The notes beneath the pieces were generated by a model. The model had not been told where the DNA came from, did not search any database, and was given only the letters and a program-made list of their open reading frames with translations. The translations under genes and the position numbers were made by a program. 53,913 nt of DNA from Bacteroidota bacterium. Its GTDB lineage: Bacteria; Bacteroidota; Bacteroidia; Chitinophagales; Saprospiraceae. How positions within the stretch are numbered: the stretch's first letter is position 1; every line of letters begins with the position of its first letter. This document shows, piece by piece, positions 1,857 through 53,913 of the stretch. The stretch covers positions 1-53,913 of the forward strand of contig JAIUPL010000035.1 in the NCBI GenBank assembly GCA_020160935.1, in the 5' to 3' direction.

Positions 1857-2003
1857 AAGTCCTGAGTCGTAAGTCCTGAGTCCTGAGTCGTACGCCCTGC
1901 TTCAACGGAGATCAGGTATTGGTTGGTCGAAAGGTACGATTGATTTTCAACATACTATCCTCCACGACGACTCAGGACTTACGACTCAGGACTCAGGACT
2001 CTT
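1857..2003. repeat. Inverted repeat with heptamer-word arms (AGTCCTG/AGTCGTA)
   Basis: The left arm (about 1857-1891) and right arm (about 1968-2002) are both built of 7-bp words, AGTCCTG and AGTCGTA, in opposite orientation. The word order differs between arms (left: CTG, GTA, CTG, CTG, GTA; right, reverse-complemented: CTG, CTG, GTA, CTG, GTA). The arms are therefore related by word content and not by an exact copy. The roughly 75-bp centre is unique. The element fills the gap between two divergent genes, and the left arm touches the nitrilase start codon. Confidence 0.85.
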
Positions 2004-2006
2004 ATT

Positions 2007-2014
2007 TACCTTTG
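2007..2014 (+). promoter_or_regulatory. Possible -7 element (TACCTTTG) for the enoyl-CoA hydratase gene
   Basis: TACCTTTG fits the Bacteroidota -7 consensus TAnnTTTG. It lies only five bases before the ATG at 2019, so a transcript from it would be essentially leaderless. No good TTG element is seen about 19 bp upstream, because that region is repeat arm. Confidence 0.35.
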
Positions 2015-2018
2015 TCCC

Positions 2019-2789
2019 ATGGATATCACACAACAAGGCTATGTTCGTTCCGAACTGACCCCCGAAGGGGCGCTGCACATCACGTTTTTTCACCCCAATC
2101 ACAACAGCCTGCCCAGTCGTTTGCTGGCCGAACTGACCGCCGCATTCGAGGCTGCGGGCAAGAATGCTGATGCCAAAATCGTGGTATTGCGCAGTGCTGA
2201 GTACAAGACGTTTTGTGCGGGCGCCAGTTTCGACGAGTTAATGGCCATCAACGATTTCGAGACAGGTAAAACTTTTTTTTCCGGTTTTGGAAATGTAATC
2301 AATGCCATGCGCAAATGCCCGAAAATCGTGGTAGGGCGTATTCATGGCAAATCGGTTGGCGGCGGCGTAGGGCTGTCGGCAGCGACGGATTTTTGTATGG
2401 CCTCGCATTATGCCACTTTCCGTTTGAGCGAACTGGCGGTCGGTTTCGGCCCGTTTGTTATTGGCCCTGCTGTAGAACGCAAAACAGGGGTAGCCGCTTT
2501 TTCAAAACTGTCGCTTACTCCGTCTGAATGGCAAACGGCGGAATGGGGCAAGGCCCACAACCTGTATCAGGAAGTGTTCGACACCGTGGAACAACTCGAC
2601 GCTTACCTCGACCATTTTTGTAAAAACCTGTGCTCCTATAGCCCGGAAGCCCTGGCCGAACTCAAAAAGATTTTCTGGCAAGGCACCGATCACTGGGATA
2701 CGCTGCTGCACGAACGCGCCGCTATCAGCGGCCGACTGGCGCTTACGCCGTTTTCGAAAGAAGCGATAGCGGAGTTTAAGAAGGGTTAG
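2019..2789 (+). CDS. Enoyl-CoA hydratase/isomerase family protein
   Basis: 256 residues with the crotonase fold throughout. The oxyanion-hole segments are FCAGASFDEL (residues 65-74) and GKSVGGGVGLS (110-120), and Glu138 in RLSELAVGFGP is the likely acid/base residue. The first catalytic Glu of classic hydratases (near 114-118) is replaced by glycines, so isomerase or other crotonase chemistry is also possible. Crotonases act on acyl-CoA thioesters in fatty-acid or amino-acid degradation. The gene ends GGT TAG, and that codon pair forms the outer edge of the long inverted repeat shared with carA. Confidence 0.88.
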   Translation: MDITQQGYVRSELTPEGALHITFFHPNHNSLPSRLLAELTAAFEAAGKNADAKIVVLRSAEYKTFCAGASFDELMAINDFETGKTFFSGFGNVINAMRKCPKIVVGRIHGKSVGGGVGLSAATDFCMASHYATFRLSELAVGFGPFVIGPAVERKTGVAAFSKLSLTPSEWQTAEWGKAHNLYQEVFDTVEQLDAYLDHFCKNLCSYSPEALAELKKIFWQGTDHWDTLLHERAAISGRLALTPFSKEAIAEFKKG

Positions 2790-2940
2790 TTATTGGTTAT
2801 CCGTTATTAGTTATTGGTTATCAGGGTGGTAGGGCGCCATCTTCACTCATTATTGGCTTTATTTTTTGTGAGGCCAATAATGAGTGAAGATGGCGCCCTA
2901 CCACCCTGATAACCAATAACTAATAACGGATAACTAACCC
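2783..2940. repeat. Long near-perfect inverted repeat spanning two convergent gene ends
   Basis: The left arm (2783-2857, 75 bp) and right arm (2873-2940, 68 bp) are identical apart from one extra 7-bp word (TGGTTAT) in the left arm; the loop is only 15 bp. The outer part consists of heptamers TTAT+NNN (TTATTGG, TTATCCG, TTATTAG, TTATCAG). The inner part is unique sequence (CAGGGTGGTAGGGCGCC and onwards). Both ends run into coding sequence: each arm contains the final Gly codon and the TAG stop of the adjacent convergent gene (enoyl-CoA hydratase, carA). Confidence 0.95.
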
Positions 2941-4016
2941 ATTTGGGTCACAAACTGATCAAACAAATACCGCGCGTCGTGCGGCCCGGGGCTTGCTTCG
3001 GGGTGGTATTGAACGCTGAAAGCCGGGTAATTTTTCAGTCGAATGCCTTCGATGGTCTGGTCGTTCAAATTGAGATGTGTAGCCTCTACGATGGAAGGGC
3101 TATCGTACACGGCTTGTTCGAGTACGCCGAATCCGTGGTTCTGGCTGGTGATTTCGGAGAGGCCGGTCACCAGATTTTTCACCGGATGATTGAGGCCGCG
3201 GTGGCCGTGGTGCAGTTTGTAAGTGGGTAGCCCGGCAGCCAGGGCCAGCAGTTGTTGACCAAGGCAGATACCGAACAATGGTTTGCCGTCGGCCAGCATT
3301 TTTTTCACATTTTCCACGGCATAGGGCATGGAGGAGGGGTCGCCGGGGCCGTTGGACAGGAAGTAGCCGTGGGGATTCCAGGCTTTGACTTCGCTAAAAT
3401 CCGTTTTTGCAGGAAACACTTTCAGGTAGCAGTCCCGCTGATCGAAACAGCGCAAGATGTTCTTTTTTACCCCATAATCCATCACTGCGATGCGGTATTT
3501 GGCATTTTCATCGCCGATGTAATAAGGTTCGCGGGTGGTGATATGGCTGGAAAGTTCGAGCCCGGCCATACCGGGTGTAGCGGCCAGGCGTTTTTTCAGT
3601 TCCTCCACATCATCCGTTTCCGAGGAAATAATGCAGTTCTGGGCCCCGCGTTCGCGAATATGCTGCACAATGGCGCGGGTATCGAGGTCGTGAATCGCCA
3701 CCAAACCTTCCGCCTCAAAATAGTCCTGAATGCTTTGATCTGCTACCTGACGGCTGTAAGGAACATTAAAATTGCGGCACACAAAACCGGCAATTTTGAC
3801 GCTTTCACTTTCTACTTCATCCTTTTTGATGCCATAATTGCCGATATGGACATTGGTGGCCACCAGCACCTGCCCGGTATAGGATGGGTCGGTAAAAATT
3901 TCCTGATAACCGGTCATACCGGTGTTGAAACAAATTTCGCCGGTAGTTGTACCGATTTTGCCGGCTGCTTTGCCGTGAAACACGGTGCCGTCTTCGAGAA
4001 GGAGAATCGCTTTCAA
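2934..4016 (-). CDS. carA: Carbamoyl-phosphate synthase small subunit (glutamine amidotransferase)
   Basis: 360 residues, full length for CarA, the subunit that hydrolyses glutamine and passes ammonia to CarB for carbamoyl phosphate, the precursor of pyrimidines and arginine. The N-terminal CPSase small domain (about 1-150) carries the family signature around NTGMTGYQEIFTDPSY. The class I glutamine amidotransferase domain has nucleophile Cys251 in FGICLGQQ with His338 and Glu340 in QYHPEASPGP. No ATG lies in the right place: the codon before AAA-GCG-ATT is TTG (4014-4016), with a stop upstream in frame and a good promoter 54 bp before it, so a TTG start is likely. carB is not in the window. 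Confidence 0.95.
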   Translation of the reverse strand: MKAILLLEDGTVFHGKAAGKIGTTTGEICFNTGMTGYQEIFTDPSYTGQVLVATNVHIGNYGIKKDEVESESVKIAGFVCRNFNVPYSRQVADQSIQDYFEAEGLVAIHDLDTRAIVQHIRERGAQNCIISSETDDVEELKKRLAATPGMAGLELSSHITTREPYYIGDENAKYRIAVMDYGVKKNILRCFDQRDCYLKVFPAKTDFSEVKAWNPHGYFLSNGPGDPSSMPYAVENVKKMLADGKPLFGICLGQQLLALAAGLPTYKLHHGHRGLNHPVKNLVTGLSEITSQNHGFGVLEQAVYDSPSIVEATHLNLNDQTIEGIRLKNYPAFSVQYHPEASPGPHDARYLFDQFVTQMG

Positions 4017-4069
4017 GGTAAAAGATTGAATTGTGAGAGCGGAACAATCTGTTGCGCTGAAACCGGGCG

Positions 4070-4099
4070 CAAAGGTCGATTAATTAATGGGGTTTTCAA
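4070..4099 (-). promoter_or_regulatory. Bacteroidota-type promoter for carA
   Basis: On the minus strand, TTG (4097-4099) is followed after 19 bp by GACCTTTG (4070-4077). This fits the Bacteroidota primary sigma factor pattern (TTG, 19-20 bp, TAnnTTTG) except for G in place of the first T. The predicted transcript would start about 47 bp before the TTG start codon of carA. Confidence 0.6.
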
Positions 4100-4113
4100 A
4101 GGGGGTGGTGAAT

Positions 4114-4300
4114 GTTGATGAGGTTGATAAAGTTGATGAGGGTTGATGAGGGTTGATGAGGGTTGATATTTAACGGCTCGGAGAAGTAAAAAACATTCTT
4201 ACCCGAGTCGTTAAATATCAACACTTATCAACCCTCATCAACCCTCATCAACCCTCATCAACTTTATCAACCTCATCAACCCTATCAACCCTATCAACCC
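4114..4300. repeat. Inverted repeat with GTTGAT-word arms and a conserved inner core
   Basis: The left arm (4114-4180) is made of words such as GTTGATGAG, GTTGATAAA and GTTGATGAGG. The right arm (4204-4280) is its near-exact reverse complement with one extra word (GTTGATAAGT). Two further words run on to 4300 and include the TGA stop of the amino-acid permease gene. The inner part, TTAACGGCTCGG ... CCGAGTCGTTAA, closes on a 23-bp loop. A closely related core is found in the 8106-8338 element. Confidence 0.92.
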
Positions 4301-5940
4301 CTCCTTATCCTCCCAACCCCATACACCACCAGCCCCACTCCGAACCAGATAAAAAACCATTTCCAATTGCTTTCGCGGATGCCAGTAAGCAGGTACAGGC
4401 AGGATGTGAGCCCCAGAAGCGGGATCACGGACAGGTTTTTCAGAAAAGCCATCACAGCCAGCGCGCCACAAATGAGCCAGAAAAGTAAGGTGGGCACATG
4501 GCTGAGAAGTGCTTCAGGGTTGAACACGGCGAACGCTGAAAACCCGGCCAGCACCAGCAAAGGGTACACATATTTCCCATTCCAGTAAGGCATATGAAAC
4601 TGCCCGGGCGTCTTTTCCCTGCGCGGCAAAAACAACACGCCGGCGCATACAATCACAAAAGCGAACAAGGTACCCGTACTTGTAAAATCGAGGACAAACT
4701 GGCTGTTGCTCAACACAATCATGGAGCCCACCACAAGGCCGGTCATCAGGGTAGCGATATGCGGTGTTTTGTATTTGGGGTGAATTTTTTGAAAAGCAGC
4801 AGGCATCAATCCATCGCGGCTCATACTCATCCAGATGCGCGGCTGGCCCATTTGCATCACCAGCATGACACTGCTCATGGCAATGACGGCGCACACTGCT
4901 ACGAGAAACTGCATCCAGCCAATATTCAGGTTTTGAGGTTCAAAAATGAACGCCAGCGGGTCGTTTACATTCATAAAACGATCGTAAGGCACTACGCCGG
5001 TGAGGGCCAGCGACAACAGAATATAAATGACCGTGCAGATTACCAGCGACAGAATCATGCCACGCGGCAGGTCGCGCTGCGGATTTTTGCTTTCTTCTGC
5101 CAGAATACTCACCGCATCGAAGCCAATATAGGCAAAAAAAACGCCGCTCACGGCTTTCATGACGCCGCTGAACTGATTGGGGAAAAAATGGTGCTCGCCA
5201 GCGGCATTGGGTGGCGTCCAGTTGTAGGTGAGCCCGTTGTGAAAAATCAAATATCCGGTAATGAGTAGTATGAGCGCGATGATCGACAATTTCATGATGA
5301 CCATCACATTACTGAAGTTGCGTGACTCCCGAATGCCGATGTACACCAGCCAGGTGATCAGTGCATTGATTACCAGGGCGGGCAGGTCGACAATAAGCCG
5401 CAAACCACCTATCTGTGGCGCCGTTTCCCAGGCGCGGAGCAGGTCGGGCCGGGCGCTTCCCGACGCTTCGCTGTAACTACAAGTCAGGTACTCCGGCAGG
5501 TGTATGTGCAGCCTCGACAGCAGCGAGGTAAAATAATCGCTCCACGAAAAGGCCACATATACATTTCCAATAGCATATTCCATCAGCAAGGCCCACCCGA
5601 TAATCCAGGCCACGATTTCACCCAAAGATGCATAAGCATAGGTGTAGGCGCTACCGGCCACCGGAATACGGCTTGCAAAATCGGAATAACACAGCGCAGT
5701 GAACGCACACGCAATGCCGCACAACACGAATAATACGGATACGCCCGGACCGCCGTTGTAAATGGCTGGCCCAAGGGCACTGAAACTCCCGGCGCCGATA
5801 ATGGCCGCAATACCAAAAAATGTAAGATCGCGCAGGCTCAATACACGTTTAAGGCCATGTGCCTCCGTGTCCGCACTTTTGTTGTAGGCATCCTGTAAGA
5901 TGGATTCGATTGTTTTTCTGCGAAAAAGATTGTTCGGCAT
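4294..5940 (-). CDS. APC-superfamily amino acid permease
   Basis: 548 residues with about twelve to fourteen hydrophobic segments, an inner-membrane transporter. The N-terminal TM1 region (FFGIAAIIGAGSFSALGPA) with the broken-helix glycine motif, and the ESKNPQRDLPRGM loop, are typical of the cationic amino acid transporter branch of the APC superfamily. Substrate cannot be read from sequence. A longer open frame begins at 6033, but the first 31 codons look non-coding; the ATG at 5938-5940 gives the usual hydrophilic N-terminus before TM1. The stop codon is part of the GTTGAT repeat arm downstream. Confidence 0.88.
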   Translation of the reverse strand: MPNNLFRRKTIESILQDAYNKSADTEAHGLKRVLSLRDLTFFGIAAIIGAGSFSALGPAIYNGGPGVSVLFVLCGIACAFTALCYSDFASRIPVAGSAYTYAYASLGEIVAWIIGWALLMEYAIGNVYVAFSWSDYFTSLLSRLHIHLPEYLTCSYSEASGSARPDLLRAWETAPQIGGLRLIVDLPALVINALITWLVYIGIRESRNFSNVMVIMKLSIIALILLITGYLIFHNGLTYNWTPPNAAGEHHFFPNQFSGVMKAVSGVFFAYIGFDAVSILAEESKNPQRDLPRGMILSLVICTVIYILLSLALTGVVPYDRFMNVNDPLAFIFEPQNLNIGWMQFLVAVCAVIAMSSVMLVMQMGQPRIWMSMSRDGLMPAAFQKIHPKYKTPHIATLMTGLVVGSMIVLSNSQFVLDFTSTGTLFAFVIVCAGVLFLPRREKTPGQFHMPYWNGKYVYPLLVLAGFSAFAVFNPEALLSHVPTLLFWLICGALAVMAFLKNLSVIPLLGLTSCLYLLTGIRESNWKWFFIWFGVGLVVYGVGRIRRG

Positions 5941-6065
5941 CTGTTTTTCTTTTGAAACCCGACGCCGGGATATTCCGACGCCTGTTTCCAAAAGTAGAAG
6001 CCCACCCAGGCAGGGAAAAACCGCAAAAAACAAGTTTGGGGGAAAAGACCCGAAATATGGGGGAA

Positions 6066-6126
6066 TTTCTCACCTCTCACCTCTCACCTCTCACCTCTCA
6101 CCTCTCACCTCTCACTTCTCACCTCT
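6066..6126. repeat. Tandem array of CTCTCAC heptamers
   Basis: About eight consecutive copies of a 7-bp word TCACCTC/CTCTCAC lie between the permease start and the stop of the next minus-strand gene (6125). The last words run up to that stop codon. Unlike most other arrays in the window, no inverted second arm is seen, so this may be a half element. The same word forms arms at 23784-23973, 28716-28843 and 43590-43788. Confidence 0.85.
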
Positions 6127-7252: not shown

Positions 7253-7388
7253 AAGGCAAACAGGTTTCAATTGGCGGTAAAATTGAAAAATTTTATCTGT
7301 TTGGCGCCACTTGCATGCCCAACAAATGCAAACCTTGGCTGTTATAAAATCTGCAAAACCCCTGTGAAACGTATATATTACACACCAG

Positions 7389-7545
7389 GGAACGATAAAA
7401 TAGTAAGGTCACGATTTTGGGGAGATTCATCTGGCGCAAAAGCAGGCGAGAGGAAGGAGCATAGTAGCGCTACGTGACTGACGAACAACGAAGTTTAGCG
7501 CCAGATGAAGCCGCCAAAATCGTGACCTTATTATTTCATCGTTCC
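7389..7545. mobile_element. MITE-like palindromic element
   Basis: 48-49-bp arms (7389-7437 and 7498-7545; GGAACGAT(A/G)AAATA.TAAGGTCACGATTTTGG at the outside, CATCTGGCGC at the inside) face each other with few mismatches around a 60-bp centre that holds the palindrome GTAGCGCTAC. Unlike the other elements, the arms are not made of short words, and there is no transposase. The size and layout suggest a miniature inverted-repeat element or a remnant of one. It lies between divergent genes, ending 17 bp before the msrB start. Confidence 0.65.
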
Positions 7546-8105: not shown

Positions 8106-8338
8106 GGTTGATAGGGGTTGATGAGGTTGATAAAGTTGATAGGGTTGATAAAGTTGATAAAGGTTGATGAGGGTTGATGATAAGCCACTCGGTGAAGAGA
8201 AAATCCAACCCTTACCTCGAGTTGCCCTTTATCAACCCTCATCAACCTTTATCAACCTCATCAACCCTATCAACCTCATCAACCCTATCAACCTCATCAA
8301 CCCCATCAACCTCATCAACCCCATCAACCCCCTTTCTC
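8106..8338. repeat. Inverted repeat with GTTGAT/ATCAACC arms filling a stop-to-start gap
   Basis: The left arm (8106-8187) has about nine words of the GTTGATAGG/GTTGATGAG/GTTGATAAA type. The right arm (8228-8335) has about twelve nonamers CATCAACCT/TATCAACCC/CATCAACCC. The centre (8190-8227) reads CACTCGG-TGAAG-AGAAAA ... CTTACC-TCGAGT and closely matches the core of the 4114-4300 element. The array starts at the base after the msrB stop and ends within a few bases of the next ATG (8339), so it occupies the whole junction. Confidence 0.92.
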
Positions 8339-10551: not shown

Positions 10552-10554
10552 CAT

Positions 10555-12977: not shown

Positions 12978-13151
12978 GCAAAAGGGGCAAGAAGCAAGGG
13001 GCAAGGGGCAAGAAGCAAGGGGCAAAAGGCAAGGGGCAAGAAGCAAGAGGCAAGAAGCAAAACAGATTTTTTTGCCTCTTGCTTTTTTTGCCTCTTGCCC
13101 CTTGCCCCTTGCCTTTTGCCTTTTGCCCCTTGCCCTTTGCCCCTTGCTCTA
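12978..13151. repeat. Inverted repeat of TTGNNNN heptamers between convergent genes
   Basis: The left arm (about 12978-13061) reads as GGCAAGA, AGCAAGG, GGCAAGG, GGCAAAA and similar words. The right arm (about 13071-13151) is the reverse-strand counterpart TTGCCTC, TTGCTTT, TTGCCCC, TTGCCTT, TTGCTCT. In each word the TTG (or CAA) is fixed and the four-base remainder varies. Word order is not strictly mirrored. The loop is about 10 bp (CAGATTTTTT). The array spans the whole space between the two stop codons and runs into the right-hand one. Confidence 0.92.
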
Positions 13152-23783: not shown

Positions 23784-23973
23784 GAGGGTGAGAGAGTGAG
23801 AGAGGTGAGAGGGTGAGAGACGTAGAGTGTACCATTTACCCGTAAAATGGTTATTTTTGTGGCCAACAAACTTATTAAGAGCGAAGCGGTACACTCTACA
23901 CCTCTCACCCTCTCACCCTCTCACCCTCTCACCCTCTCACATCTCTCACATCTCTCACCCTCTCACCTCTATC
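23784..23973. repeat. Inverted repeat with CTCTCACC arms and GTAGAGTGTACC inner motif
   Basis: The left arm (23784-23833) consists of GAGGGTGAGA/GTGAGAG words and ends CGTAGAGTGTACC. The right arm (23888-23973) begins GGTACACTCTAC and continues as CACCTCT and CACCCTCT words up to the ATG at 23974. The 54-bp loop is unique, AT-rich sequence. The right arm is nearly twice as long as the left. The same inner motif, with changed centre bases, occurs in the 49221-49358, 28716-28843 and 43590-43788 elements. Confidence 0.92.
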
Positions 23974-27100: not shown

Positions 27101-27591
27101 TGGTTTCCTTACAACGCGCTGTTGAGTCGGATATTCCTTTGATACGCGATCTGGCGCACCGCATCTGGTGGGCCCATTACCCGGATATTATCAGCGACGA
27201 ACAGATCGCCTACATGCTGGAGCAGGGTTATAGCGAATCGGCACTTTCAGCCCAACTCGCCGACCCTGCCCTGGCATTCTGGCTGGTGCTGGCCGATGGT
27301 GTTGCTGCCGGTTTTCTGGCTATCAGCGGTAAAGGCGACGGCGCGTATTTTATCCACAAATTTTACCTCGACAATACCCAGCGCGGCCGTGGTGTCGGTG
27401 CAGCAGCATTCGAGACTTTGCTAAACCAATATCCCGACCTGCGCGAAGCGCGGCTGAATGTCAATCGGCGCAATTTCAAAAGCGTCAATTTTTATTTCAA
27501 GGTCGGTTTTGTCATCCACCATTGTATGGACACGCCGTTCGGCGAAGGGTATGTGATGGATGATTTTCAAATGGTATATCGGAAAGGATAA
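27100..27591 (+). CDS. GNAT-family N-acetyltransferase
   Basis: 163 residues with the GNAT fold: acetyl-CoA-binding motif A in IHKFYLDNTQRGRGVGAAAFETLL (about 85-110) containing the Q/RxxGxG/A signature (RGRGVGA), then the LNVNRRNFKSVNFYFKVGFVIHH segment typical of small-molecule acetyltransferases. Substrate unknown. It begins at the ATG that overlaps the previous gene's TGA; a GTG one codon earlier is possible. Its TAA stop directly meets the TTGNNNN heptamer array. Confidence 0.87.
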   Translation: MVSLQRAVESDIPLIRDLAHRIWWAHYPDIISDEQIAYMLEQGYSESALSAQLADPALAFWLVLADGVAAGFLAISGKGDGAYFIHKFYLDNTQRGRGVGAAAFETLLNQYPDLREARLNVNRRNFKSVNFYFKVGFVIHHCMDTPFGEGYVMDDFQMVYRKG

Positions 27592-27820
27592 GGGGCAAAG
27601 GGCAAAGAGCAAGGGGCAAGGGGCAAAAGGCAAGGAGCAAGGGATATTTTGTAGATAAACATAAAATAATTAAGAAATTTGCGGCAAGGGACCTCAGCGC
27701 CAAGGTACATTGTTTGCCCCTTGCTCTTTGCCTTTTGCCTTTTGCCTCTTGTTCCTTGCCTCTTGCCTCTTGCCCCTTGCTCTTTGCCTTTTGCCTCTTG
27801 TTCCTTGCTAACTGCCTTTC
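27592..27820. repeat. Inverted repeat of TTGNNNN heptamers between GNAT and EamA genes
   Basis: The left arm (27592-27643) has words GGGCAAA, GAGCAAG, GGGCAAG, AGGCAAG. The right arm (27713-27818) is a run of fifteen in-phase heptamers TTGCCCC, TTGCTCT, TTGCCTT, TTGCCTT, TTGCCTC, TTGTTCC and so on. Within the right arm a block of about six words is repeated (TTGCCCC, TTGCTCT, TTGCCTT, TTGCCTC, TTGTTCC), which shows internal duplication. The 68-bp AT-rich loop is unique. It uses the same words as the 12978-13151 element. Confidence 0.92.
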
Positions 27821-27825: not shown

Positions 27826-28740
27826 ATGACACGTGCCTACCTCGCCCTCGCTGCCATCTGTATCATTTGGGGCACTACCTATACTGCTATCAAACTGGCG
27901 GTGCGCGATTTTCCACCTTTTCTGCTGGTAGGCATGCGACAAACCTCTGCCGGGCTGATTCTGTTGGGGCTGGCCTGGGCCAACCATAAAACCTCGGTGC
28001 CCGACCGAAAATACATCTTGCGGCAAGCCCTGACCGGCCTGGCCACCATTACCGGCGGCAATGGATTCATTACCTGGGGCATGCAATACGTGTCATCGGG
28101 GCTGGCATCCATCATTGGCTCGCTCACACCGGTCATGGTGGTACTGTTTTCACTGGCACTGCGCAACAAGGAACGCGTCAATCTGATGATCATTCTGGGT
28201 GTTTTGCTGGGTTTTGGCGGGCTGGGCATCATTTTCAACAATGGCTGGCAAGATTTTTTGAAACCCGAATATTCGATGGGTATTGTGGGTTGTTTTGCTT
28301 CCTGCTGCACCTGGTCGCTGGGGACGGTACTGGCCAAGCGCTGGAATTCGCCGGATGTATCGCCGCTGATGAACGCGGGGTTGCAGATCACTGCCGGCGG
28401 CATGGGCGGGTTTTTATTAAGTGCCCTGTTTGATACCCACTACGACATACACCATACCATTCATGGATGGGCAGCGATGATTTACCTGATATGCATTGGT
28501 TCGGCCCTGGCATTTACCTTATATATGTATGCGCTGAAACACCTGAGCGCGGCTGTTTCTTCCCTTTACACTTACATCAATCCTGTTGTCGCAATTTTAT
28601 TGGGCTGGATCGTGCTGGGCGAATCGCTCACCACCGGCGCGTTGATGGGCATGGCCGTTACGATCGTAGGGGTGTGGATGGTAAATGCCGGGCACAGAAA
28701 GATGAGGCGAGAAATGTTGAGGAGAGTTGATGAGGGTTGA
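27826..28740 (+). CDS. EamA/DMT-family transporter
   Basis: 304 residues with ten predicted transmembrane helices and two EamA repeats (about 5-140 and 152-290), the drug/metabolite transporter superfamily. IIWGTTYTAIKLAV (TM1) and the closing LGWIVLGESLTTGALMGMAVTIVGVWMVN of repeat two are typical. Substrate unknown. The upstream open frame translates the heptamer arm and is rejected; the ATG at 27826 opens TM1. The last codons (MLRRVDEG) and the TGA stop are written in GTTGA-word sequence, so the repeat element has apparently reached into the coding end. Confidence 0.88.
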   Translation: MTRAYLALAAICIIWGTTYTAIKLAVRDFPPFLLVGMRQTSAGLILLGLAWANHKTSVPDRKYILRQALTGLATITGGNGFITWGMQYVSSGLASIIGSLTPVMVVLFSLALRNKERVNLMIILGVLLGFGGLGIIFNNGWQDFLKPEYSMGIVGCFASCCTWSLGTVLAKRWNSPDVSPLMNAGLQITAGGMGGFLLSALFDTHYDIHHTIHGWAAMIYLICIGSALAFTLYMYALKHLSAAVSSLYTYINPVVAILLGWIVLGESLTTGALMGMAVTIVGVWMVNAGHRKMRREMLRRVDEG

Positions 28741-28843
28741 TAAATGTTGATGAGGGTTGATAGTTGAGGGGGTGAGGTCAACTCTACGCCTCTCACTGTC
28801 TCACCTCTCACTTCTCACCTCTCACCTCTCACCTCTCTCTCTC
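28716..28843. repeat. Composite repeat: GTTGAT words on one side, CTCTCAC words on the other
   Basis: From 28716 to about 28766 the sequence is GTTGATGAGG-type words that overlap the end of the EamA gene. The centre reads GTTGAGGGGGTGAGGTCAAC then TCTACGCC. From about 28795 to 28843 it is CTCTCAC/CTCTCACC words running to the next ATG (28844). The two sides carry different words and do not pair with each other outside the centre. The same layout in the reverse orientation is found at 43590-43788. Confidence 0.88.
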
Positions 28844-29260
28844 ATGTGGACTTTTTACGCTATTCTTTCTGCTATCTTCGCTGCCCTTACGGCCATCTTT
28901 GCCAAAATCGGGGTAAAGGATGTCAACTCCAATCTTGCTACTGCCATACGTACTGTGGTGGTTTTGCTAATGATCTGGGGAATTGTGCTGGTTCGTGGTG
29001 AAATAAAAGGCATACACGCACTCGGCACCAGAAACTGGATATTTCTGGCAATTTCCGGCATTGCTACGGGTCTGTCCTGGGTGTTCTATTTCAAGGCATT
29101 GCAGGCAGGACCGGTGTCGCAGGTGGCTGCCATCGATAAATTGAGCCTGGCGTTTACTATAGGGTTATCTTTGGTGTTTCTTGGAGAAACGCTTACCTGG
29201 AAAACGGGGGTCGGCGCTGCTCTGATCATTGCAGGCACGCTCCTGTTGGCGTGGAAATAA
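28844..29260 (+). CDS. Half-size EamA-family membrane protein
   Basis: 138 residues, four to five transmembrane helices, one EamA repeat only (FAALTAIFAKIGVKDVNSNLATAIRT at the start, GPVSQVAAIDKLSLAFTIGLS and LVFLGETLTWKTGVGAALI at the end). Single-repeat relatives work as dimers in the DMT superfamily, which is a plausible reading here. The start codon follows the CTCTCAC arm without a gap. It may be co-transcribed with the full-size EamA gene upstream and the YjbR-like gene 13 bp downstream. Confidence 0.85.
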   Translation: MWTFYAILSAIFAALTAIFAKIGVKDVNSNLATAIRTVVVLLMIWGIVLVRGEIKGIHALGTRNWIFLAISGIATGLSWVFYFKALQAGPVSQVAAIDKLSLAFTIGLSLVFLGETLTWKTGVGAALIIAGTLLLAWK

Positions 29261-31251: not shown

Positions 31252-34170
31252 ATGAAAATATTTCTACTTTTTTTAACGACCTTTTTTTTTATCTCTTTTT
31301 CATCGCCCTCAAGTGCGCAATCCTCCTACGAAAAGGATAGCCTTGCTATTAAAGCAGTAATGGATAGTGCCAAAACGCTACTCAACCAGCACGAATTTCC
31401 TCCTGCACTTGCCTTGTTGAATCGTGCAGGCCAATTACTGCAAGTATACCCCGATTCCAATACGAATATGTATGCCTACTGGTATGAGTATCAGGGATAT
31501 GCATATTACTATGACGGGCAAGTAACGAAGGCTATCGGATTGTTTGAAAAAAGTATAGAAGTGTACAGGAGAAGTTACCCAGTGGGCGATATTCATTTGG
31601 CTGTCCCTCTTTACAATTACGGGGTCTTATGTAAACTTAAACACGATTTTAAACGATCACGCGAATACCTGCAGGAAGTACTACAGATTCGAATGCGGCA
31701 TGTCCCTGAATCCATAGAAACCGGGCAAACCTGGTCTGCTCTTGGAGCGCTGGAATATGATATGGGCAATTATTCAGATGCTACCCGGTACATTCAAAAA
31801 GCAGAGGAGATATTCCAGAAATATCCCGAAAACTTTAAGGCTCGCGAATCTATCGCAACAGTTTATCTTAATATGGCAAACATATATGATGAATGGGGAG
31901 ATTACGATCGCGCAATAGAGTTCTATCGTAAATCGCTATCCATCCGCAAAGCCAACATGAAAAAGGACGATAGCCGAATAGCAACCTGCCTGTCATTGCT
32001 TGGCAACAGTTATGAAAACAAACTTGATCTGGATAATGCTGAAACCTCTTACCGGGAGGCGCTGCGTATTTGTACCGCAAATGCACCCGACGTAGATTCC
32101 TCCGAACTGGCTATTTGTTTCGAAAATATAGCGTCCCTGCTGAACAAGAAAAAGAACTATCCGGAAGCAATCCAATATCAAAACCAGTGTATCAATATTC
32201 GCCGGCAATGCCAATGGCTGGGTATAGGCAGGGTAGCCGATGCCCAGGTCCTGCTTGCACAAATATACAAGAGTGCAGGGAACCTTGACTCTGCTGCATG
32301 GTATGCCCGGCAAGCGATAACAATATGGGATGAATCTTACGAGGAAATCTACCCTGCAACCAGACTGGATGGCTGGTTAATGCTGGCAGAGGTTCAACTC
32401 CTGCGCGACAATATCGACGAAGCCTGGCAACTGACGGAAGAAGCGTTGAAGCACAATAAAAAGTCGTCAGATGAAGATTTTGAACGGGGTCAACACACTT
32501 TTATTCTTCGAGCAAGGATATGCAATGCCCGCTACAAAAAATCCGGCCAACTATCCGATTTGCAAGCCGCTATCCCGGCCCTTAAAACCATACTCGACTT
32601 GAGAAGCACACAACAACAGCGCTTTGGTCGTAGTGGTTCGAGACTAACATCTGCCGCACTCCTTTACCCTGTTGCAGAAGAAGCGCTTGATATATGTACA
32701 AAATTGTACGAAATAACACAAGACAAATCAGTGGCCGACCTTGCGTTCAAATACATGGAGCAAACAAAGAGTACATTGCTCCGCTTGAGTATCAATGAAA
32801 TGCACATTCTGTTTGCCGATCTGATACCCAACAACTTGTCTGATCAGGAATCTTTCCTGATGTTCACTATTGCGGAAGTAGAAGCCGAGCGCGATGAACT
32901 GCTCATGACGGGTACCCCTTTAAATGATCCGGAAATACTGGAACTGGATAGCCACCTGTTCGAATTGAACCAGCAAACGGATTCCCTGAAAAACATCATC
33001 CAGCAGAAGTACCCTGCTTATTTTCAGGCCCGCTATAATACAACAACGATTGATCTCAACGACCTTCAACAACATCTGCTTAAAAAGGAACAAACCCTGC
33101 TGTCCTATTTTTGGGGAGAGCAAGACGTGTATGTGATTGGTATTCAAAAGGAAGGTGTATTTCTAAAACAACTTCCCGGTCGAATGACCCTTGAATCTTC
33201 CGCCCGCCAACTCTTGCAGGAAGTCCGCACACCTAAAAAGGAAAGTGATGGCCTGATCACCAGTGCCCGGAGTTTGTATAACAACCTGATAGCCCCCGTA
33301 GCCTCCCGACTCACGGAGGAACTGATCGTGGTGCCGGATGGGCTACTGAATTATTTGCCATTTGAGGTACTACTAAGCCGGCAACCGGAGCATGTATATC
33401 GATACCATACTTTCCCTTATCTGCTCTTGAGCCACCAGATATCTTATGCTCCTTCGGCCACGATCTGGCAGGAGATGGTTCATAAAATACCTTCACCGCA
33501 GCATTATAGCACACTGGCAGCCTTCGCCCCTTTTTACGAAGGCAATCCCGGCCAATTGGTTTATATGCCAGAATTGGATACTATGCGCAGACAAACGTTC
33601 GAACCGCTGCCCCATTCCGGTGAGGAAGTTTACAGCATTGAAAAAATCATTGGAGGGGAGGTCTTTTTTCGCAATGCTGCCACGGTCACCCGATTCGACA
33701 GTGTAGCGCCCCGATCCCGCATCATCCATCTGGCAACACACGGAAAAGCCAATGACCGCTCGGGCGATTTTTCCTACATGGCCTTCCTTGGCGCTATCGA
33801 TACCACGCAATGCGATCTGCTGCTGGCCCGTGATCTGTATAAAATGCGCTTGCAAGCAGATTTGGTTACCCTTTCTGCCTGTGAGACGGGTGCTGGCGAA
33901 ATGCGACGTGGCGAAGGCGTTATCAGCCTGGCACGGGCATTTGTCATGGCTGGGGCCAAAAGTATTGTTACATCCCTTTGGGCCGTAAACGATGCCAGTA
34001 CCCGACATCTGATGGTGGGCTTCTATACCAATCTTAAAAAAGGTATGACCAAAGACAAGGCTCTGGCATCTGCTAAAAGACAGTATATCAAAAACTACAA
34101 TCCGACAGCACATCCGTATTACTGGGCGCCATTTGTAGCCATCGGAGATATGCAGGCGCTTTGGCGCTGA
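31252..34170 (+). CDS. Exported TPR-CHAT caspase-like protein
   Basis: 972 residues. The signal peptide (1-23, FFFISFSSPSSAQ) sends it to the periplasm or outside. Tetratricopeptide repeats fill about 40-450 (for example YNYGVLCKLKHDFKRSREYL, YLNMANIYDEWGDYDRAIEFY). A linker with coiled-coil character precedes a CHAT domain (about 690-970) of the caspase/separase clan with the catalytic pair His830 in HLATHGKAND and Cys877 in TLSACETGAGE. A TPR-CHAT protein works as a protease in type III-E CRISPR (Csx29), and other CHAT proteins do in gasdermin defence; here the partners are a sigma factor and a membrane protein. The substrate is unknown. Confidence 0.9.
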   Translation: MKIFLLFLTTFFFISFSSPSSAQSSYEKDSLAIKAVMDSAKTLLNQHEFPPALALLNRAGQLLQVYPDSNTNMYAYWYEYQGYAYYYDGQVTKAIGLFEKSIEVYRRSYPVGDIHLAVPLYNYGVLCKLKHDFKRSREYLQEVLQIRMRHVPESIETGQTWSALGALEYDMGNYSDATRYIQKAEEIFQKYPENFKARESIATVYLNMANIYDEWGDYDRAIEFYRKSLSIRKANMKKDDSRIATCLSLLGNSYENKLDLDNAETSYREALRICTANAPDVDSSELAICFENIASLLNKKKNYPEAIQYQNQCINIRRQCQWLGIGRVADAQVLLAQIYKSAGNLDSAAWYARQAITIWDESYEEIYPATRLDGWLMLAEVQLLRDNIDEAWQLTEEALKHNKKSSDEDFERGQHTFILRARICNARYKKSGQLSDLQAAIPALKTILDLRSTQQQRFGRSGSRLTSAALLYPVAEEALDICTKLYEITQDKSVADLAFKYMEQTKSTLLRLSINEMHILFADLIPNNLSDQESFLMFTIAEVEAERDELLMTGTPLNDPEILELDSHLFELNQQTDSLKNIIQQKYPAYFQARYNTTTIDLNDLQQHLLKKEQTLLSYFWGEQDVYVIGIQKEGVFLKQLPGRMTLESSARQLLQEVRTPKKESDGLITSARSLYNNLIAPVASRLTEELIVVPDGLLNYLPFEVLLSRQPEHVYRYHTFPYLLLSHQISYAPSATIWQEMVHKIPSPQHYSTLAAFAPFYEGNPGQLVYMPELDTMRRQTFEPLPHSGEEVYSIEKIIGGEVFFRNAATVTRFDSVAPRSRIIHLATHGKANDRSGDFSYMAFLGAIDTTQCDLLLARDLYKMRLQADLVTLSACETGAGEMRRGEGVISLARAFVMAGAKSIVTSLWAVNDASTRHLMVGFYTNLKKGMTKDKALASAKRQYIKNYNPTAHPYYWAPFVAIGDMQALWR

Positions 34171-34429: not shown

Positions 34430-35989
34430 ATGAAGAAAAAAATTGCAACAACTTTCACAATTGTAGTCTTCAGCACTATTTTTTCTTATGCTCAAGTAGA
34501 GCAAAAAAAATATATCCCCAATGATTTTCTGCAAAACATGAAGAACTATGGAGAAATAATTTTGAAAAAATTGCCCAGTGGGCATGACCTGGGGGCATCT
34601 GTTATTTCAGCAAGAGATTATACCATTGCTACAAAACTTCGAGCCCTTTGCGAAATTTTAGTAGCAAAAAAATCAATGACCCTTTCAGAACTACAGGATT
34701 TGGAAAAACAACTGAAAGAGGCAACCAATCCTACTGTTTTGTTGCAAATGAAAGATCAAGACGATGCCAATAAGAATAAAAATATTCAGATTTCAATAGG
34801 AGAGGTGCCCTGTGAACATTCTCAGGATGAATATAATGATTGTCTAGATAATAAGCCTTATGTCCTTCCCAATGTGCCTGATGGCGCTTCTGCATATCTA
34901 TGTACAATGGAACATGCAATGAGAGTGGGCAGTTGTTCGCTTCAAGTGAAAATGAGTAATATCTCTGATACTACAGAAGATGCAGAAGCATTTGTCTTTG
35001 AAAACATGGGTAATCATTTTATTGAGAGGCATCAATCATTTCTTTATAAGTATTGGGATTCCCAAAAATGGATGGTCGGTGATTTCAATGGTGACGGCAA
35101 AGACGACCTGATGTATGTTTACAAACACAGCAGTGGCGATGCAAGGGCAATGCTACATTTCTCTATAGAGTCAGGGTTCGAGCCAAATTCCGGCGTTTCT
35201 CCGCTTTACAAATATTGGGATTCCCAAAGATGGATGGTGGGTGATTTCAATGGCGACGGCAAAGACGACCTGGTGAATGTTTACGAACACAGCAGTGGCG
35301 ATGCAAGGGCGATGCTACACTTCTCTACAGGAATAGAATTCAAAGAAAATTCCGGCGTTTCTCCGCTTTACAAATATTGGGATTCCCAAAGATGGATGGT
35401 AGGTGATTTCAATGGTGACGGCAAAGACGACCTAGTAAATATTTACAAGCATAGCAGTGGTGATGCAAGGGCGATGCTACACTTCTCTACAGGGTCTGGG
35501 TTCGAACAAAATTCTGGCGTTTCTCCACTTTACAAGTATTGGGACTCTCAAAGATGGATGGTGGGTGATTTCAATGGTGACGGCAAAGACGATCTTGTGA
35601 ATGTTTACGAACACAATGTTACTCCACAAAATAAAAAGATGGCAAGAGCCATGCTCCACTTTTCAAATGGAGAAAAGTTTGAAAAACAATCAAAAGTGAT
35701 ATCTATAAACTCACTCATTACCCCGACGCAACAGTGGGCCGTAGGCGATTTTGACGGCGACTTACTTGATGACCTGATAGTATTCAAAGAAGTGGAGAGA
35801 AGTCATGTAAATACTGTGACTGCAAATGTTTACAGACTAACAGATAGTGCATCCATAATGACTTCGGACTTTTTACACGTACTTCCTGACAACAGAATCC
35901 TTGTAGGGTCTTTTGGGTCTGACAAGAAAGATGATATTTATTGGGTACGCATAGCCTGGCCCCAAATTTCAAAAGAAAGCAGGTTTTAA
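34430..35989 (+). CDS. Secreted FG-GAP/VCBS-like repeat protein
   Basis: 519 residues. A signal peptide (1-21, ending FSYAQ) precedes a helical region (25-120), a Cys-containing segment, and from residue about 206 four tandem 54-residue repeats, each starting YKYWDSQ(K/R)WMVGDFNGDG and carrying the Ca-binding DFNGDGKDDL. Degenerate copies follow (WAVGDFDGDLLDDL, VGSFGSDKKDDI). FG-GAP/VCBS blades build propellers on surface or secreted proteins. At the DNA level the four copies recur every 162 bp (35045, 35207, 35369, 35531) with only few differences, a sign of recent duplication. No T9SS domain is seen. Confidence 0.85.
   Translation: MKKKIATTFTIVVFSTIFSYAQVEQKKYIPNDFLQNMKNYGEIILKKLPSGHDLGASVISARDYTIATKLRALCEILVAKKSMTLSELQDLEKQLKEATNPTVLLQMKDQDDANKNKNIQISIGEVPCEHSQDEYNDCLDNKPYVLPNVPDGASAYLCTMEHAMRVGSCSLQVKMSNISDTTEDAEAFVFENMGNHFIERHQSFLYKYWDSQKWMVGDFNGDGKDDLMYVYKHSSGDARAMLHFSIESGFEPNSGVSPLYKYWDSQRWMVGDFNGDGKDDLVNVYEHSSGDARAMLHFSTGIEFKENSGVSPLYKYWDSQRWMVGDFNGDGKDDLVNIYKHSSGDARAMLHFSTGSGFEQNSGVSPLYKYWDSQRWMVGDFNGDGKDDLVNVYEHNVTPQNKKMARAMLHFSNGEKFEKQSKVISINSLITPTQQWAVGDFDGDLLDDLIVFKEVERSHVNTVTANVYRLTDSASIMTSDFLHVLPDNRILVGSFGSDKKDDIYWVRIAWPQISKESRF
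35045..35692 (+). repeat. Four 162-bp tandem repeats inside the FG-GAP gene
   Basis: Repeat units start at 35045, 35207, 35369 and 35531, exactly 162 bp (54 codons) apart. Each contains TACAAATATTGGGATTCCCA or a near match, followed by the FG-GAP-coding GATTTCAATGGTGACGGCAA. Differences between units are scattered and few; the last unit is the most changed at its 3' side. Copy number could vary by recombination. Confidence 0.92.
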
Positions 35990-43589: not shown

Positions 43590-43788
43590 GAGGGTAGAGA
43601 GAGTGAGAGAGTGAGAGGGTGAGAGAGTGAGAGGGGTAGAGTTGACCTCAACATCTCAACTATCAACCCTCATCAACCCTCATCAACTTTATCAACCTCA
43701 TCAACCTTCATCAACACTATCAACCCTCACAACCTCATCAACCTTCATCAACACTATCAACCCTCACAACTCCAACCAACCAACCACT
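43590..43788. repeat. Composite repeat: GTGAGAG words on one side, ATCAACC words on the other
   Basis: From 43590 the sequence runs in GTGAGAG-type words (the CTCTCAC family on the other strand) to GGGGTAGAGTTGACC, then TCAACATCTCAAC, then about twelve ATCAACCCTC/ATCAACCTC words to the ATG at 43789. A 40-bp block, CCTCATCAACCTTCATCAAC and onwards, is present twice at about 43696-43735 and 43731-43770. Read on the other strand the order (GTTGAT words, GTTGAGGTCAACTCTAC centre, CTCTCAC words) is the same as at 28716-28843. Together with the kinase promoter it fills the 415-bp gap between the divergent kinase and receptor genes; I see nothing else there. Confidence 0.88.
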
Positions 43789-46431: not shown

Positions 46432-46607
46432 AGTGTTTTTGTGTTTTAGTGTTTTAGTGTTTTGGTGTTTTTGTGTGCTTCGCTCATGGCATTTGTGTTG
46501 AATAGTCATGCTATGAAATGAACATAGCGACATTCAAATTACCTCCAATACCGAGAGCGAAGCACACCAAAACACTAAAACACTAAAACACCAAAACACA
46601 AAAACTC
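46431..46607. repeat. Inverted repeat of GTGTTTTN octamers with GTGCTTCGCTC inner motif
   Basis: The left arm (46431-46485) reads GTGTTTTT, GTGTTTTA, GTGTTTTA, GTGTTTTG, GTGTTTTT, then GTGTGCTTCGCTC. The right arm (46555-46607) is the near-exact inverse with the words in slightly different order. The loop is about 69 bp with a small GCTATG/CATAGC stem. Each arm end lies inside the stop codon of an adjacent convergent gene: the receptor's TAG on the left and the CNNM-like gene's TGA on the right. Confidence 0.93.
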
Positions 46608-49218: not shown

Positions 49219-49220
49219 AA

Positions 49221-49358
49221 TAAGTCCTGAGTTCTAAGTCCTGAGTCCTAAGTCTGTAGAGTACACCTTGTTACGCCTGGTATTTATATAAACAAAAGCC
49301 AAGTGTACCAAGGTGTACTCTACAGACTTAGGACTCAGGACTCAGGACTCAGGACTTT
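49221..49358. repeat. Inverted repeat of AGTCCTG heptamers with GTAGAGTACACC inner motif
   Basis: The left arm (49221-49269) is TAAGTCCTGAG, TTCTAAGTCCTGAGTCC, then TAAGTCTGTAGAGTACACCTT. The right arm (49310-49358) is its near-exact reverse complement, differing at three positions in the outer words. The loop is 40 bp. The element starts two bases past the fabH stop and its last words run to about 35 bp before the M16 protease ATG. It uses the same heptamer (AGTCCTG) as the 1857-2003 element and the same inner motif as 23784-23973. Confidence 0.93.
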
Positions 49359-49392
49359 AAACTCAGGACATTTAACAATTAAACATATCAAC

Positions 49393-52149: not shown

Positions 52150-52153
52150 GATA

Positions 52154-52425
52154 GGTGTTTTAGTGTTTTTGGGGGCTTCGCTCTTGGTGTTGAGAGGTTG
52201 GATAAGACGCGCCTTACGGCGCTATGGGGTTTGGGATTAGGCGGATGATGCGGATTAAATAGATTTATATTTCAATGGAATATCTCAAAACAAATAATTC
52301 AGCAAAATCCATTTAATCCGCATCATCCGCCCAATCCCAAACCCCATAGCGCCGTAAGGCGCGTCTTATCCAACCTCTCAACCCCAAGAACGAAGCCCCC
52401 CAAAACACAAAAACACCAAAACACA
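52154..52425. repeat. Long inverted repeat with GTGTTTTN words and a GCGCCTTACGGCGC block
   Basis: Arms of about 107-115 bp (52154-52260 and 52311-52425) surround a 50-bp loop. From the outside in: GTGTTTTA/GTGTTTTTG words, GGGGGCTTCGCTC, GTTGAGAGGTTGGATAAGAC, the GC-rich palindrome GCGCCTTACGGCGC, and GGCGGATGATGCGGATTAAA. The arms are nearly identical in the inner 90 bp and diverge in the word region. The element fills the gap between the convergent M16 protease and ScyD/ScyE-like genes. Confidence 0.95.
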
Positions 52426-52430
52426 CCCCT

Positions 52431-53705
52431 TCACATCCGCACCAGCATGTGCGCAGCCCGGCCACGCTCCGTGATGATTTCCAGTTGATAGGCGCCGGAA
52501 GGGCATGCGCCTGGCAGCCATTCCGTCTGGTGCGCGCCTTCGGGCAGGCGGCCCAGGTTTTGAGTGTACACCAGTTGCCCTTGTGCATTGAGGACGCGCA
52601 GTTGTACGTCCGAAACATCGGGAAGAGAAAACGAAATGCGCGTCTGTGTGGCAACAGGGTTGGGCGCAATGGAAAGATCATTTACAGCAGCCTTCAACTC
52701 GTGCGAAGCAGTGGTGATATTGTCCCATTTCAGCAATTCCCCCGTCGCAATTTGCGTGATATACAGATTGCCATGTGCATCGAGCGCCAGACCCGCCGAA
52801 GGGTCAAAGTTTTCCAGTACCACTTCCTGCGTTCCATTCGGTTTGATACGGGTTACCCGGGCGCTGCCCGGCGCAAAACCCGGCGGTAAATTGGGGTCGA
52901 GTTCGAAATGCCCGAATTGTAAGACATACAAGTCGCCCGTAGCAGCATCCAGTGCCATATCGGTGAGTGTTGTGAGTCCCCAGGCATAGGTGCTTACAGT
53001 GCCGGTTGCATCCACCAGAAATATTTGCGCAGAGCCGTCCAAAAACGGGAAGCCGGTGAGTTGGCACACATAAAAGCCGCCGCCAGGCTTGCTGATGATC
53101 CGGGTTGGAACGGCATCTACCATTGGCGGACCGAACGGCAAAGGGTTGGGGGTAGACGGGAAAGTAGCGAAAATCGACATTTGGCCTACCGGCGTTACTT
53201 TTATGATGGCGTTGGCCGCTGCATCTGCCACATACAAATTGGAAAACTCATCGAGCGCCATAGAGTAGGGGTCGCTTTCCGGAATGCCTTGTCCAAGAAC
53301 AAATTCGGCAATATTCAAGGTGGCAACCGCTTCCACCAGTGTCTGTGGAGCGCTTATGCCGGGCGTGAAGCCGCTCAGGTCAAAAATCAGCACCTGGCCC
53401 GTTGCGCCCTCTGTTATCGCCAGTCTGTTGCCTGGCAATTCAAGGGTATGCCAGGGCCCGACACCCTCCTGATTGACCGTGTCGAACAGCGAAGGCAGTC
53501 CGACCACTACCGGCCAAATGTCGCCGTTGCCTTGAACGAGGGAAACGGCGCCGTCGTTGAAACCATAGCCGGATTCTACTACCCACGCACGTCCCTGGAC
53601 GTCGATGCCGACCCCCACCGGCACCCGCAGGCTGTCGGCAATGATTGTTTGTGCGTTCGCAGAAATGCAGAGTAAAGAAAGGAATGTGAAAAGAAGTGTT
53701 CTCAT
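52431..53705 (-). CDS. ScyD/ScyE-family secreted propeller protein with T9SS domain
   Basis: 424 residues. Signal peptide 1-18 (LLCISANAQ). A beta-propeller of the ScyD/ScyE (NHL/SMP-30-like) type covers about 20-340: RVPVGVGIDVQGRAWVVESG, EGVGPWHTLELPGNRLAITE, DPYSMALDEFSNLYVADAAA, LDPNLPPGFAPGSARVTRIK, and SAGLALDAHGNLYITQIATG. ScyD/ScyE are accessory proteins of scytonemin gene clusters in cyanobacteria, but the family is wide and no such cluster is seen here. The last roughly 75 residues are a T9SS sorting domain (SIAPNPVATQTRISFSLP to AAHMLVRM). Confidence 0.88.
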   Translation of the reverse strand: MRTLLFTFLSLLCISANAQTIIADSLRVPVGVGIDVQGRAWVVESGYGFNDGAVSLVQGNGDIWPVVVGLPSLFDTVNQEGVGPWHTLELPGNRLAITEGATGQVLIFDLSGFTPGISAPQTLVEAVATLNIAEFVLGQGIPESDPYSMALDEFSNLYVADAAANAIIKVTPVGQMSIFATFPSTPNPLPFGPPMVDAVPTRIISKPGGGFYVCQLTGFPFLDGSAQIFLVDATGTVSTYAWGLTTLTDMALDAATGDLYVLQFGHFELDPNLPPGFAPGSARVTRIKPNGTQEVVLENFDPSAGLALDAHGNLYITQIATGELLKWDNITTASHELKAAVNDLSIAPNPVATQTRISFSLPDVSDVQLRVLNAQGQLVYTQNLGRLPEGAHQTEWLPGACPSGAYQLEIITERGRAAHMLVRM

Positions 53706-53790
53706 GTGTAAACAGGTTTTTTTCGGTGAACATCCTGCAACATCGCAGGTGAAGGCATATACGAAGTGAATGGAGATTTGGATAATGATT

Positions 53791-53913
53791 GGTGTTTTTG
53801 TGTGCTTCGCACTTGGGGTTGAGATGTTGGATGAGACACGCCTTACGGTGCTGATAAAACGCGCCTTACGGCGCTATGGGGTTTGGGATTGGGCGGATGA
53901 TGCGGATTAAACA
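53791..53913. repeat. Second copy of the GTGTTTT/GCGCCTTACGGCGC element, cut by the window edge
   Basis: The sequence GGTGTTTTTGTGTGCTTCGC begins a left arm like that of 52154-52425. It continues through GTTGAGATGTTGGATGAGAC, a doubled CGCCTTACGG block, and the identical stretch ending GGCGGATGATGCGGATTAAA at the edge. Compared with the other copy it carries one extra GATRARAC-(A/G)CGCCTTACGG(T/C)GCT unit. The matching right arm must lie outside the window. Confidence 0.9.

Follow-up and report, generated by a model that had tools for sequence, protein, structure and literature searches.

We looked at hairpins built of short tandem words that occupy the junctions between genes in contig JAIUPL010000035.1 of a Bacteroidota bacterium. 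The contig, 53,913 nucleotides (nt) long, is the whole stretch of DNA that was analysed (the window) and is the entire contig C9 of a 5.84-Mb genome of 51 contigs (G000). These word-built palindromes are a real, abundant and lineage-restricted class of elements, which is kin to the known interspersed palindromic and heptamer repeats and carries signs of a concerted evolution of the two arms at the level of DNA. In our estimate there is a probability of about 0.55 that the pairing of the arms is kept by DNA-level copying from arm to arm, through template switching together with slippage of the words.

The host was placed in Bacteroidota through Por_Secre_tail and related domains, and its closest named genomes are metagenome-assembled genomes (MAGs) of Saprospiraceae. 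A cyanobacterial origin of the window was ruled out by the protein domains and the closest named genomes, and the parallel with cyanobacteria drawn in an earlier note on this DNA does not extend to the host. The closest relative found is G040 (locus L063, MAG-362), followed by G016 (L059); G040 matches the window DNA at 79-87% identity over aligned blocks and at 84-95% in the flanking 350 nt of listed gaps. Genes were taken from our own codon-usage calls, retrained once.

Abundance, layout and placement at gene ends

In the 1,246 kb of G000 that were read (about 21% of the genome, 79% being unread) there are 196 hairpins, or 157 per Mb, which extrapolates to about 900 per genome, and the 470 kb sampled from G040 hold 60 (128 per Mb). 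Part of the sampled G000 stretches was picked for known copies, but the 680 kb outside the window were not, and they hold 93 hairpins against none in three dinucleotide-preserving shuffles. The arms in G000 are 53 nt long on average and reach 145 nt, with a median identity between arms of 0.964, and in 39 of the 196 hairpins the ungapped arm pairs without a mismatch; the view that word order is not simply mirrored is thus true of a minority only. No two of the 196 copies reach an identity of 0.95 over the element, the maximum within the sampled 21% of the genome being 0.905.

It was found that tandem arrays of 6-10-mers lie mainly between genes, with 328 in gaps (186 kb in total) vs 40 in coding sequence (1,039 kb). 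The period is 7 in 184 of the 328 and 6 or 8-10 in the remainder. Within 300 nt of an array an inverted partner was present for 256 of 328 and a direct one for 21, while the flanks of another array, used as control, gave 21 and 29; the layout is therefore strictly inverted. Arrays without an inverted partner are solo arms or chimeras. With the same detector, Sphingobacteriaceae and similar loci (816 kb) gave 10 hairpins, other loci of Saprospiraceae type (217 kb) gave 3, and three loci from the same genus (58 kb) gave none. At least one hairpin was seen in 7 of 20 genus members, with one 7-20-kb locus surveyed per genome, and two members, G007 and G009, are hairpin-poor (3 each in 80 kb, one being a 788-nt inverted repeat of another kind).

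The hairpins are concentrated at gene ends. In G000 a hairpin stands in 73 of the 154 gaps between convergent genes, in 90 of the 496 tandem ones and in 21 of the 159 divergent ones, and in G040 the same counts are 23/38, 25/232 and 4/37, so that convergent gaps stand out from the rest in both genomes (p 2e-14 and p 4e-11); 9 of 196 and 6 of 60 hairpins had no gap assignment. Those in the tandem gaps of G000 start at a median of 5 nt past the upstream stop and end 64-84 nt ahead of the next start. Altogether 58 of 92 begin within 15 nt of the stop, where uniform placement expects 29.5 and gave at most 40 in 5,000 trials. The earlier note had proposed a genome-wide, strictly inverted system that runs from the stop codon onwards, and both the array partners and this placement agree with it. 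A TTTT within 12 nt downstream was found in just 7 of the 92, and the T fraction is 0.28 on both sides; therefore the hairpins do not have the textbook form of an intrinsic terminator. As a side function they may act at the ends of transcripts, as a bidirectional end or as a 3' shield of the mRNA.

Most elements share one anatomy, in which a word array at each end is followed inward by a core common to the family (for example CTGTAGAGTACACC or GGTGGTAAGG) and then by the loop. The word classes are those that the earlier note gave, and the arrays of G000 use AGTCCTG, GTTATTA, GGTTGATRA, GCAAGGG, GTGTTTTN, GTGAGAGN, AGTTATG and others. The vocabulary is partly common to relatives: AGTCC, GTTATT, GTGAGAG and CACGGATT recur in G040, while GTTATT, GTGAGAG and GGTTGAT recur in G016, which also has AGTGCGAAGTC. 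More distant genus members use other words, such as ACGGTNG and GATTACATGATTGAC in G021 and AGTTGTT in G008. One grouping of copies, a component of 68, consists of several word families merged through single linkage.

Arms that change together, and junctions in relatives

The evidence that the arms change together comes from copies within G000 and from orthologous junctions. At least two Watson-Crick pair types occur in all 48 variable columns of the GTTATT family (12 copies), in 20 of 22 of the AGTCC family (22 copies) and in 3 of 4 of the AGTTATG family (10 copies); four GTGAGAG copies gave no usable columns. When right arms were reshuffled among copies, pairing fell from 0.976 to 0.600 (GTTATT), from 0.966 to 0.814 (AGTCC) and from 0.971 to 0.926 (AGTTATG), and in families with at least four copies the own right arm was the best-pairing one in 83 of 98 copies. 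Because the arms had been found by matching, a fixed-anchor test was added, and in it own-arm identity was 0.86 vs 0.61 across copies, exceeding all 10,000 permutations.

Between species, similarity within a copy exceeded that of the same arm in 10 of 10 pairs with G040 (arms as found) and in 10 of 12 same-family orthologous pairs with G040 and G016 (0.68 vs 0.51, p 0.012). Over the same 12 pairs the cross-arm score (0.52) equals the same-arm score (0.51), and the arms have therefore lost separate ancestry. Of the 48 differences aligned between left arms, 29 have their mirror image in both species' right arms.

A first look-up, with hand-set borders, covered 14 elements and located 11 of them in G040; the comparison was then recomputed. 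As the first recomputation had no hairpin-bearing common junction outside the window, two regions picked for hairpin richness in G000 were added and searched in G040 and G016. Among 51 gaps common to G000 and G040, both genomes have a hairpin at 15, G000 only at 5, G040 only at 3 and neither at 28 (p 2.6e-6); for tandem gaps alone the numbers are 5, 3, 1 and 19 (one-sided hypergeometric about 0.003, by hand). The 30 gaps common to G000 and G016 give 8 with a hairpin in both, 3 and 6 with a hairpin in one, and 13 with none (p 0.057). By common 7-mers the family is the same in 10 of 15 pairs with G040 and in 2 of 8 with G016; the 2790 pair with G040 was scored as different although its words look alike. 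This co-occurrence of hairpins together with the family mismatch indicates that hairpins are kept or arise again at a given gene end while their words and families are exchanged. The common junctions only partly distinguish inheritance with replacement from independent insertion.

Single junctions of the window illustrate the turnover. At 1858-1993 G040 uses the same word class in another word order, at 4114-4280 it carries a GGATTAGAAGGATT-type hairpin instead, at 27590-27799 it has a chimera of two families, and at 8116-8293 it has no hairpin. Thus, as had been suggested, words often differ at orthologous junctions of close relatives. Plain vertical inheritance of the same words without pairing, the outcome that the earlier note set against its own proposal, is not what the relatives show, since both sides are paired and the words differ.

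Proposed copying between arms and the rival explanations

One question that is raised by such stems is whether their pairing is selected in RNA or arises in DNA. Where a stem is selected as RNA, G·U is tolerated on the transcribed strand and C·A is not, and the ratio of G·T to C·A mismatches was used as a test. On the sense strand of tandem-gap hairpins there are 73 G·T and 68 C·A in G000 and 24 and 30 in G040 (pooled 97:98); in convergent gaps, in which transcription may run on either strand, the counts are 70 and 70 in G000 and 26 and 14 in G040. Acceptor stems of tRNA, taken as positive control, gave 9 G·T and 0 A·C (Fisher p 0.003 vs the hairpins). The near equality on the sense strand, unlike that in tRNA stems, speaks for copying of arms at the DNA level. 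In addition, the 5' arm is rich in G+T in 164 of 196 hairpins of G000 (mean 0.611), in 47 of 60 of G040 and in 33 of 44 of other genus members. By family this holds in G000 for 11 of 12 families with at least three copies and for 20 of 28 when singletons are counted (p 0.036). The excess is not shown by short intergenic hairpins from 40 G000 stretches (28 of 61) or by long hairpins from outside the genus (8 of 15). According to a published discussion of intrastrand template switching (PMC8794818), G-C and U-A pairs should be in excess when the stem is read from its 5' side, and a 5' arm rich in G and T is as that model predicts.

A sequence of events can be proposed on this basis. When a strand becomes single during replication or transcription it may fold into the hairpin, and a stalled polymerase could then switch to the opposite arm and copy it, with words slipping by one or more units. 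One arm would thus be rewritten from the other, as in quasipalindrome correction, so that the arms would change together, gain or loss of words would be mirrored between them, and copies would diverge from one another. The 3' end of a gene would be the place where such DNA is tolerated or useful, and new sites were probably seeded through the movement of whole elements or of halves. We infer that folding which tolerates G·T pairs could be the source of a drive that acts on DNA alone. A wider scheme, that of a palindrome drive, joins template-switch rewriting biased to 5' G and T, growth by slippage and a hairpin that outlasts its vocabulary at gene 3' ends, with neither a transposase nor RNA-level selection keeping the pairs; we offer it tentatively and rate it short of even odds.

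Several points weigh against arm copying. The arms were defined through matching, which favours within-copy similarity in the covariation, best-partner and cross-species tests, and in the anchor test no more than 13 of 23 had their own partner as the best match, and 19 anchors lacked an inverted partner. A half-gap version of the comparison within and between species gave 7 of 10 (p 0.375); its halves contained unique spacer and truncated those arm ends that reach into genes. The tRNA control is a small one, with 21 alignable acceptor stems among the 24 distinct tRNAs of all loci fetched. The GCAAGGG family, which is large (7 copies), has a G+T of 0.43, and with singletons just 20 of 28 families exceed 0.5. 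A template-switch event was not directly sighted in the sequences compared, and perfect hairpins that were recently inserted from copies in the unread 79% of the genome could imitate homogenisation.

The strongest competitor, which we regard as rather unlikely, is that these are functional RNA hairpins, either bidirectional terminators or 3' mRNA shields, with pairing held by selection on RNA. The placement close to stops and the enrichment in convergent gaps would fit it, as would the common presence with G040 at orthologous gaps even where the family differs, and a single mismatch may be tolerable in a 50-bp stem. Yet the sense strand has no G·U excess, a T tract is mostly missing, and presence differs at 8 of 51 gaps with G040 and at 9 of 30 with G016. 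We consider it improbable that they are elements of the repetitive extragenic palindromic (REP), bacterial interspersed mosaic element (BIME) or REPIN type mobilised by a Y1 transposase (RAYT, REP-associated tyrosine transposase). Such elements are likewise interspersed, palindromic, extragenic and near stops, GTAG occurs within several cores (CGTAGAGT), and the genome has two Y1_Tnp genes, one with REP-like repeats around it and the other with a non-word hairpin directly upstream. Against this, the arms are far longer than the 5-13 bp stems that the available text gives for GTAG REPs (PMC3733652), neither Y1 gene is adjoined by a word hairpin, and Y1 genes are found in 34 of 42 genus genomes, the hairpin-poor G007 and G009 included. 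Still less probable are DNA transposons with terminal inverted repeats that resemble miniature inverted-repeat transposable elements (MITEs). They would explain junctions where an element is present in one genome and absent in the other, such as a 162-nt hairpin in G040 where the convergent gap of G000 is 3 nt, but the hairpins have no fixed ends, their arm length varies by words, the sample holds no near-identical copies, and by eye target duplication is not apparent at the few clean empty sites inspected. An artefact of assembly or amplification that forms fold-back chimeras could be suspected where the named relatives are MAGs; it is very hard to reconcile with separate genome records that have hairpins at the same junctions, with the concentration at gene ends and with family-specific cores.

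Two candidate causes were rejected. The Y1 transposase was set aside as driver after both genes of G000 were inspected, and its counts do not visibly track hairpin density in the sampled genomes (no formal test). Loss of a palindrome-cutting nuclease as sole cause was also dismissed, because the hairpin-rich G040, G016 and G021 all keep an Mre11/Rad50-like pair of SbcCD type. In G000, which is 98% complete, the nuclease had no match and the ATPase one weak match of 53 residues; of the two models searched, each was matched by 38 of the 42 genomes in the genus and neither by G000. Loss of the pair may only allow longer arms. Hairpins with a score of at least 60 number 36 of 196 in G000 vs 6 of 83 in G040 and G016 (p 0.017), the G016 stretches having been chosen as orthologues of hairpin-rich G000 regions.

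Some observations on these genes and assemblies stand by themselves. The Y1 gene at 2317-2838 (L170:1-3000, contig C29 of G000) has REP-like repeats around GTTGGCGAGGACGCCAAC on both sides, possibly a small separate REP system. The other Y1 gene, at 24793-25245 of contig C42, has a 41-bp non-word hairpin (40 paired) directly upstream (L169:9522-9708), with unrelated short word arrays on the two sides of that hairpin. In G014 a perfect inverted repeat of 3,580 bp (L161:12841-20000) is probably a contig assembly artefact. Alignments of G000 to G040 contigs C145, C215, C288 and C266 start near contig ends, and assemblies may break at hairpins.

Covarying base pairs are the accepted best sign of a functional RNA. 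Here many covarying stems come without a sign of RNA selection in the G·U test, therefore covariation can arise from a process in DNA. The hairpins also offer many natural replicates in which to study template switching, how bacteria tolerate long palindromes, and the rate at which a repeat vocabulary turns over.

Window elements and known repeat systems

Table 1. Elements of the window and loci of the Mre11/Rad50-like pair. Arms are given as paired positions/arm length, counted ungapped with one ungapped detector.
Feature	Position	Arms	Setting or remark
Hairpin, AGTC(CTG/GTA) words	1858..1993	outer arms 25/25	divergent gap, nitrilase-like / enoyl-CoA hydratase-like genes
Hairpin, GTTATT(A/G/C) words, core GGGTGGTAGGGCGCC..TTATTGGC	2796..2934	62/62, loop 15	convergent gap to carA
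Hairpin, GGTTGATRA words	4114..4280	outer arms 55/55	
Solo tandem TCTCACC array	6068..6124		without inverted partner
Hairpin, GGTTGATRA words	8116..8293	57/63	begins 10 nt past stop of SelR-domain gene
Hairpin, GCAAGGG words	12993..13148	54/61	convergent gap
Hairpin, GTGAGAG words, core GTAGAGTGTACC	23804..23917	28/30 ungapped	longer with gaps
Hairpin, GCAAGGG words	27590..27799	47/52	
Chimeric half-elements	28713..28845		no inverted pair; left GTTGATGAGG words; right core GTCAACTCTACGC and CTCTCACC words
Chimeric half-elements	43590..43787		no inverted pair; left GAGAGTG words and GTAGAGTTGACC core; right ATCAACC words
Hairpin, GTGTTTTN words, core GTGTGCTTCGCTC	46435..46605	48/51	fills convergent gap
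Hairpin, AGTCC words, core CTGTAGAGTACACC	49222..49357	50/53	
Hairpin, GTGTTTTN words, long further arms	52154..52417	107/113	convergent gap
Left half, apparent relative of 52154 element	53791..53913		rest cut off by contig end
Mre11/Rad50-like pair	G040:C67:129902-133428; L266:2940-6469		

The earlier note had named 13 junctions with word arms that face each other. Ten of them carry inverted pairs, while those at 28716 and 43590 look like half-elements of two different families, where the detector gave no inverted repeat, and of the element at 53791 only the left half is seen, because the contig, and with it the window, stops there. At most of these junctions repeat finders also returned large inverted repeats whose arms, of up to 113 nt, consist of tandem words, and the predicted folds are very stable; Rfam covariance models gave 0 matches in the window at gathering cut-offs. 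The 2796-2934 element has at least 87 matches in its own genome (both strands counted; best 40 of 160 candidates scored), and the 49222-49357 element has dozens of near-full-length relatives in G040 (best 40 of 466 candidates scored). A hairpin without words lies at 7389-7545 (32-nt arm, 30 paired) and is cleanly missing in G040, by eye with no target duplication. The 20 window proteins that were scanned have no common theme. Among the genes are one for a TPR-CHAT protein of 936 amino acids (31360-34170) and an FG-GAP repeat gene (34430-35989) that holds 3.5 copies of a 162-bp tandem repeat (35042-35615).

Related heptamer repeats are the short tandemly repeated repetitive (STRR) sequences of cyanobacteria. 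Their tandem degenerate 7-bp intergenic words are matched here, and their cyanobacterial host is not. REPINs are near-identical dispersed copies with a master sequence, whereas here no copy out of the 196 in the sampled 21% of the genome has a relative at 0.95 or above. To call the hairpins an undescribed system, as the earlier note did, is too strong, because long interspersed palindromes and stems built of heptamers are already known kinds.

The following comparisons hold for the cited papers as their available portions describe them. The REP, BIME and REPIN families with GTAG and CGTC palindromes are interspersed, extragenic and lineage-specific and often touch stops (PMC3733652), as do the hairpins. 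REPs are units of 20-40 bp with 5-13-bp stems, an unpaired terminal tag and, for GTAG, a transposase, whereas the elements here have long arms of variable words and no terminal tag, and GTAG, where found, lies inside paired arms. Quasipalindrome correction by template switching is a mutational process through which perfect hairpin arms arise and are maintained; it was described for genes of RNAs, rRNA and microRNA among them, and mostly as short events (PMC8794818), while here it would concern hundreds of intergenic loci. The coding palindromes of Nematomorpha mitochondria are likewise many long perfect inverted repeats in one lineage, but they lie within coding genes of animal mitochondria and not in word arrays at gene ends (PMC6649704). 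The TAACTGA repeats of Beggiatoaceae, some Cyanobacteria and Bacteroidetes are also intergenic heptamer arrays of sporadic distribution, yet they are direct, use one fixed word and in BOGUAY stand mostly just upstream of starts (PMC4679880). A 2026 survey of perfect inverted repeats took spacers of at most 8 nt, and its main text, in the available portion, is without Bacteroidota or Bacteroidetes (PMC13155455). Among the literature matches listed, none names a hairpin system of Saprospiraceae.

A further parallel is the P6b stem of the cyanobacterial trnL (tRNA-Leu UAA) intron, which is built of heptamers (PMC4476775). There, too, the stem consists of degenerate 7-mer words, its length changes word by word and sometimes on both sides, and one class of repeat was repeatedly swapped for another. 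That stem belongs to one locus of a self-splicing intron RNA in cyanobacteria, whereas the hairpins described here stand at hundreds of gene ends in Bacteroidota, in several families with cores of their own.

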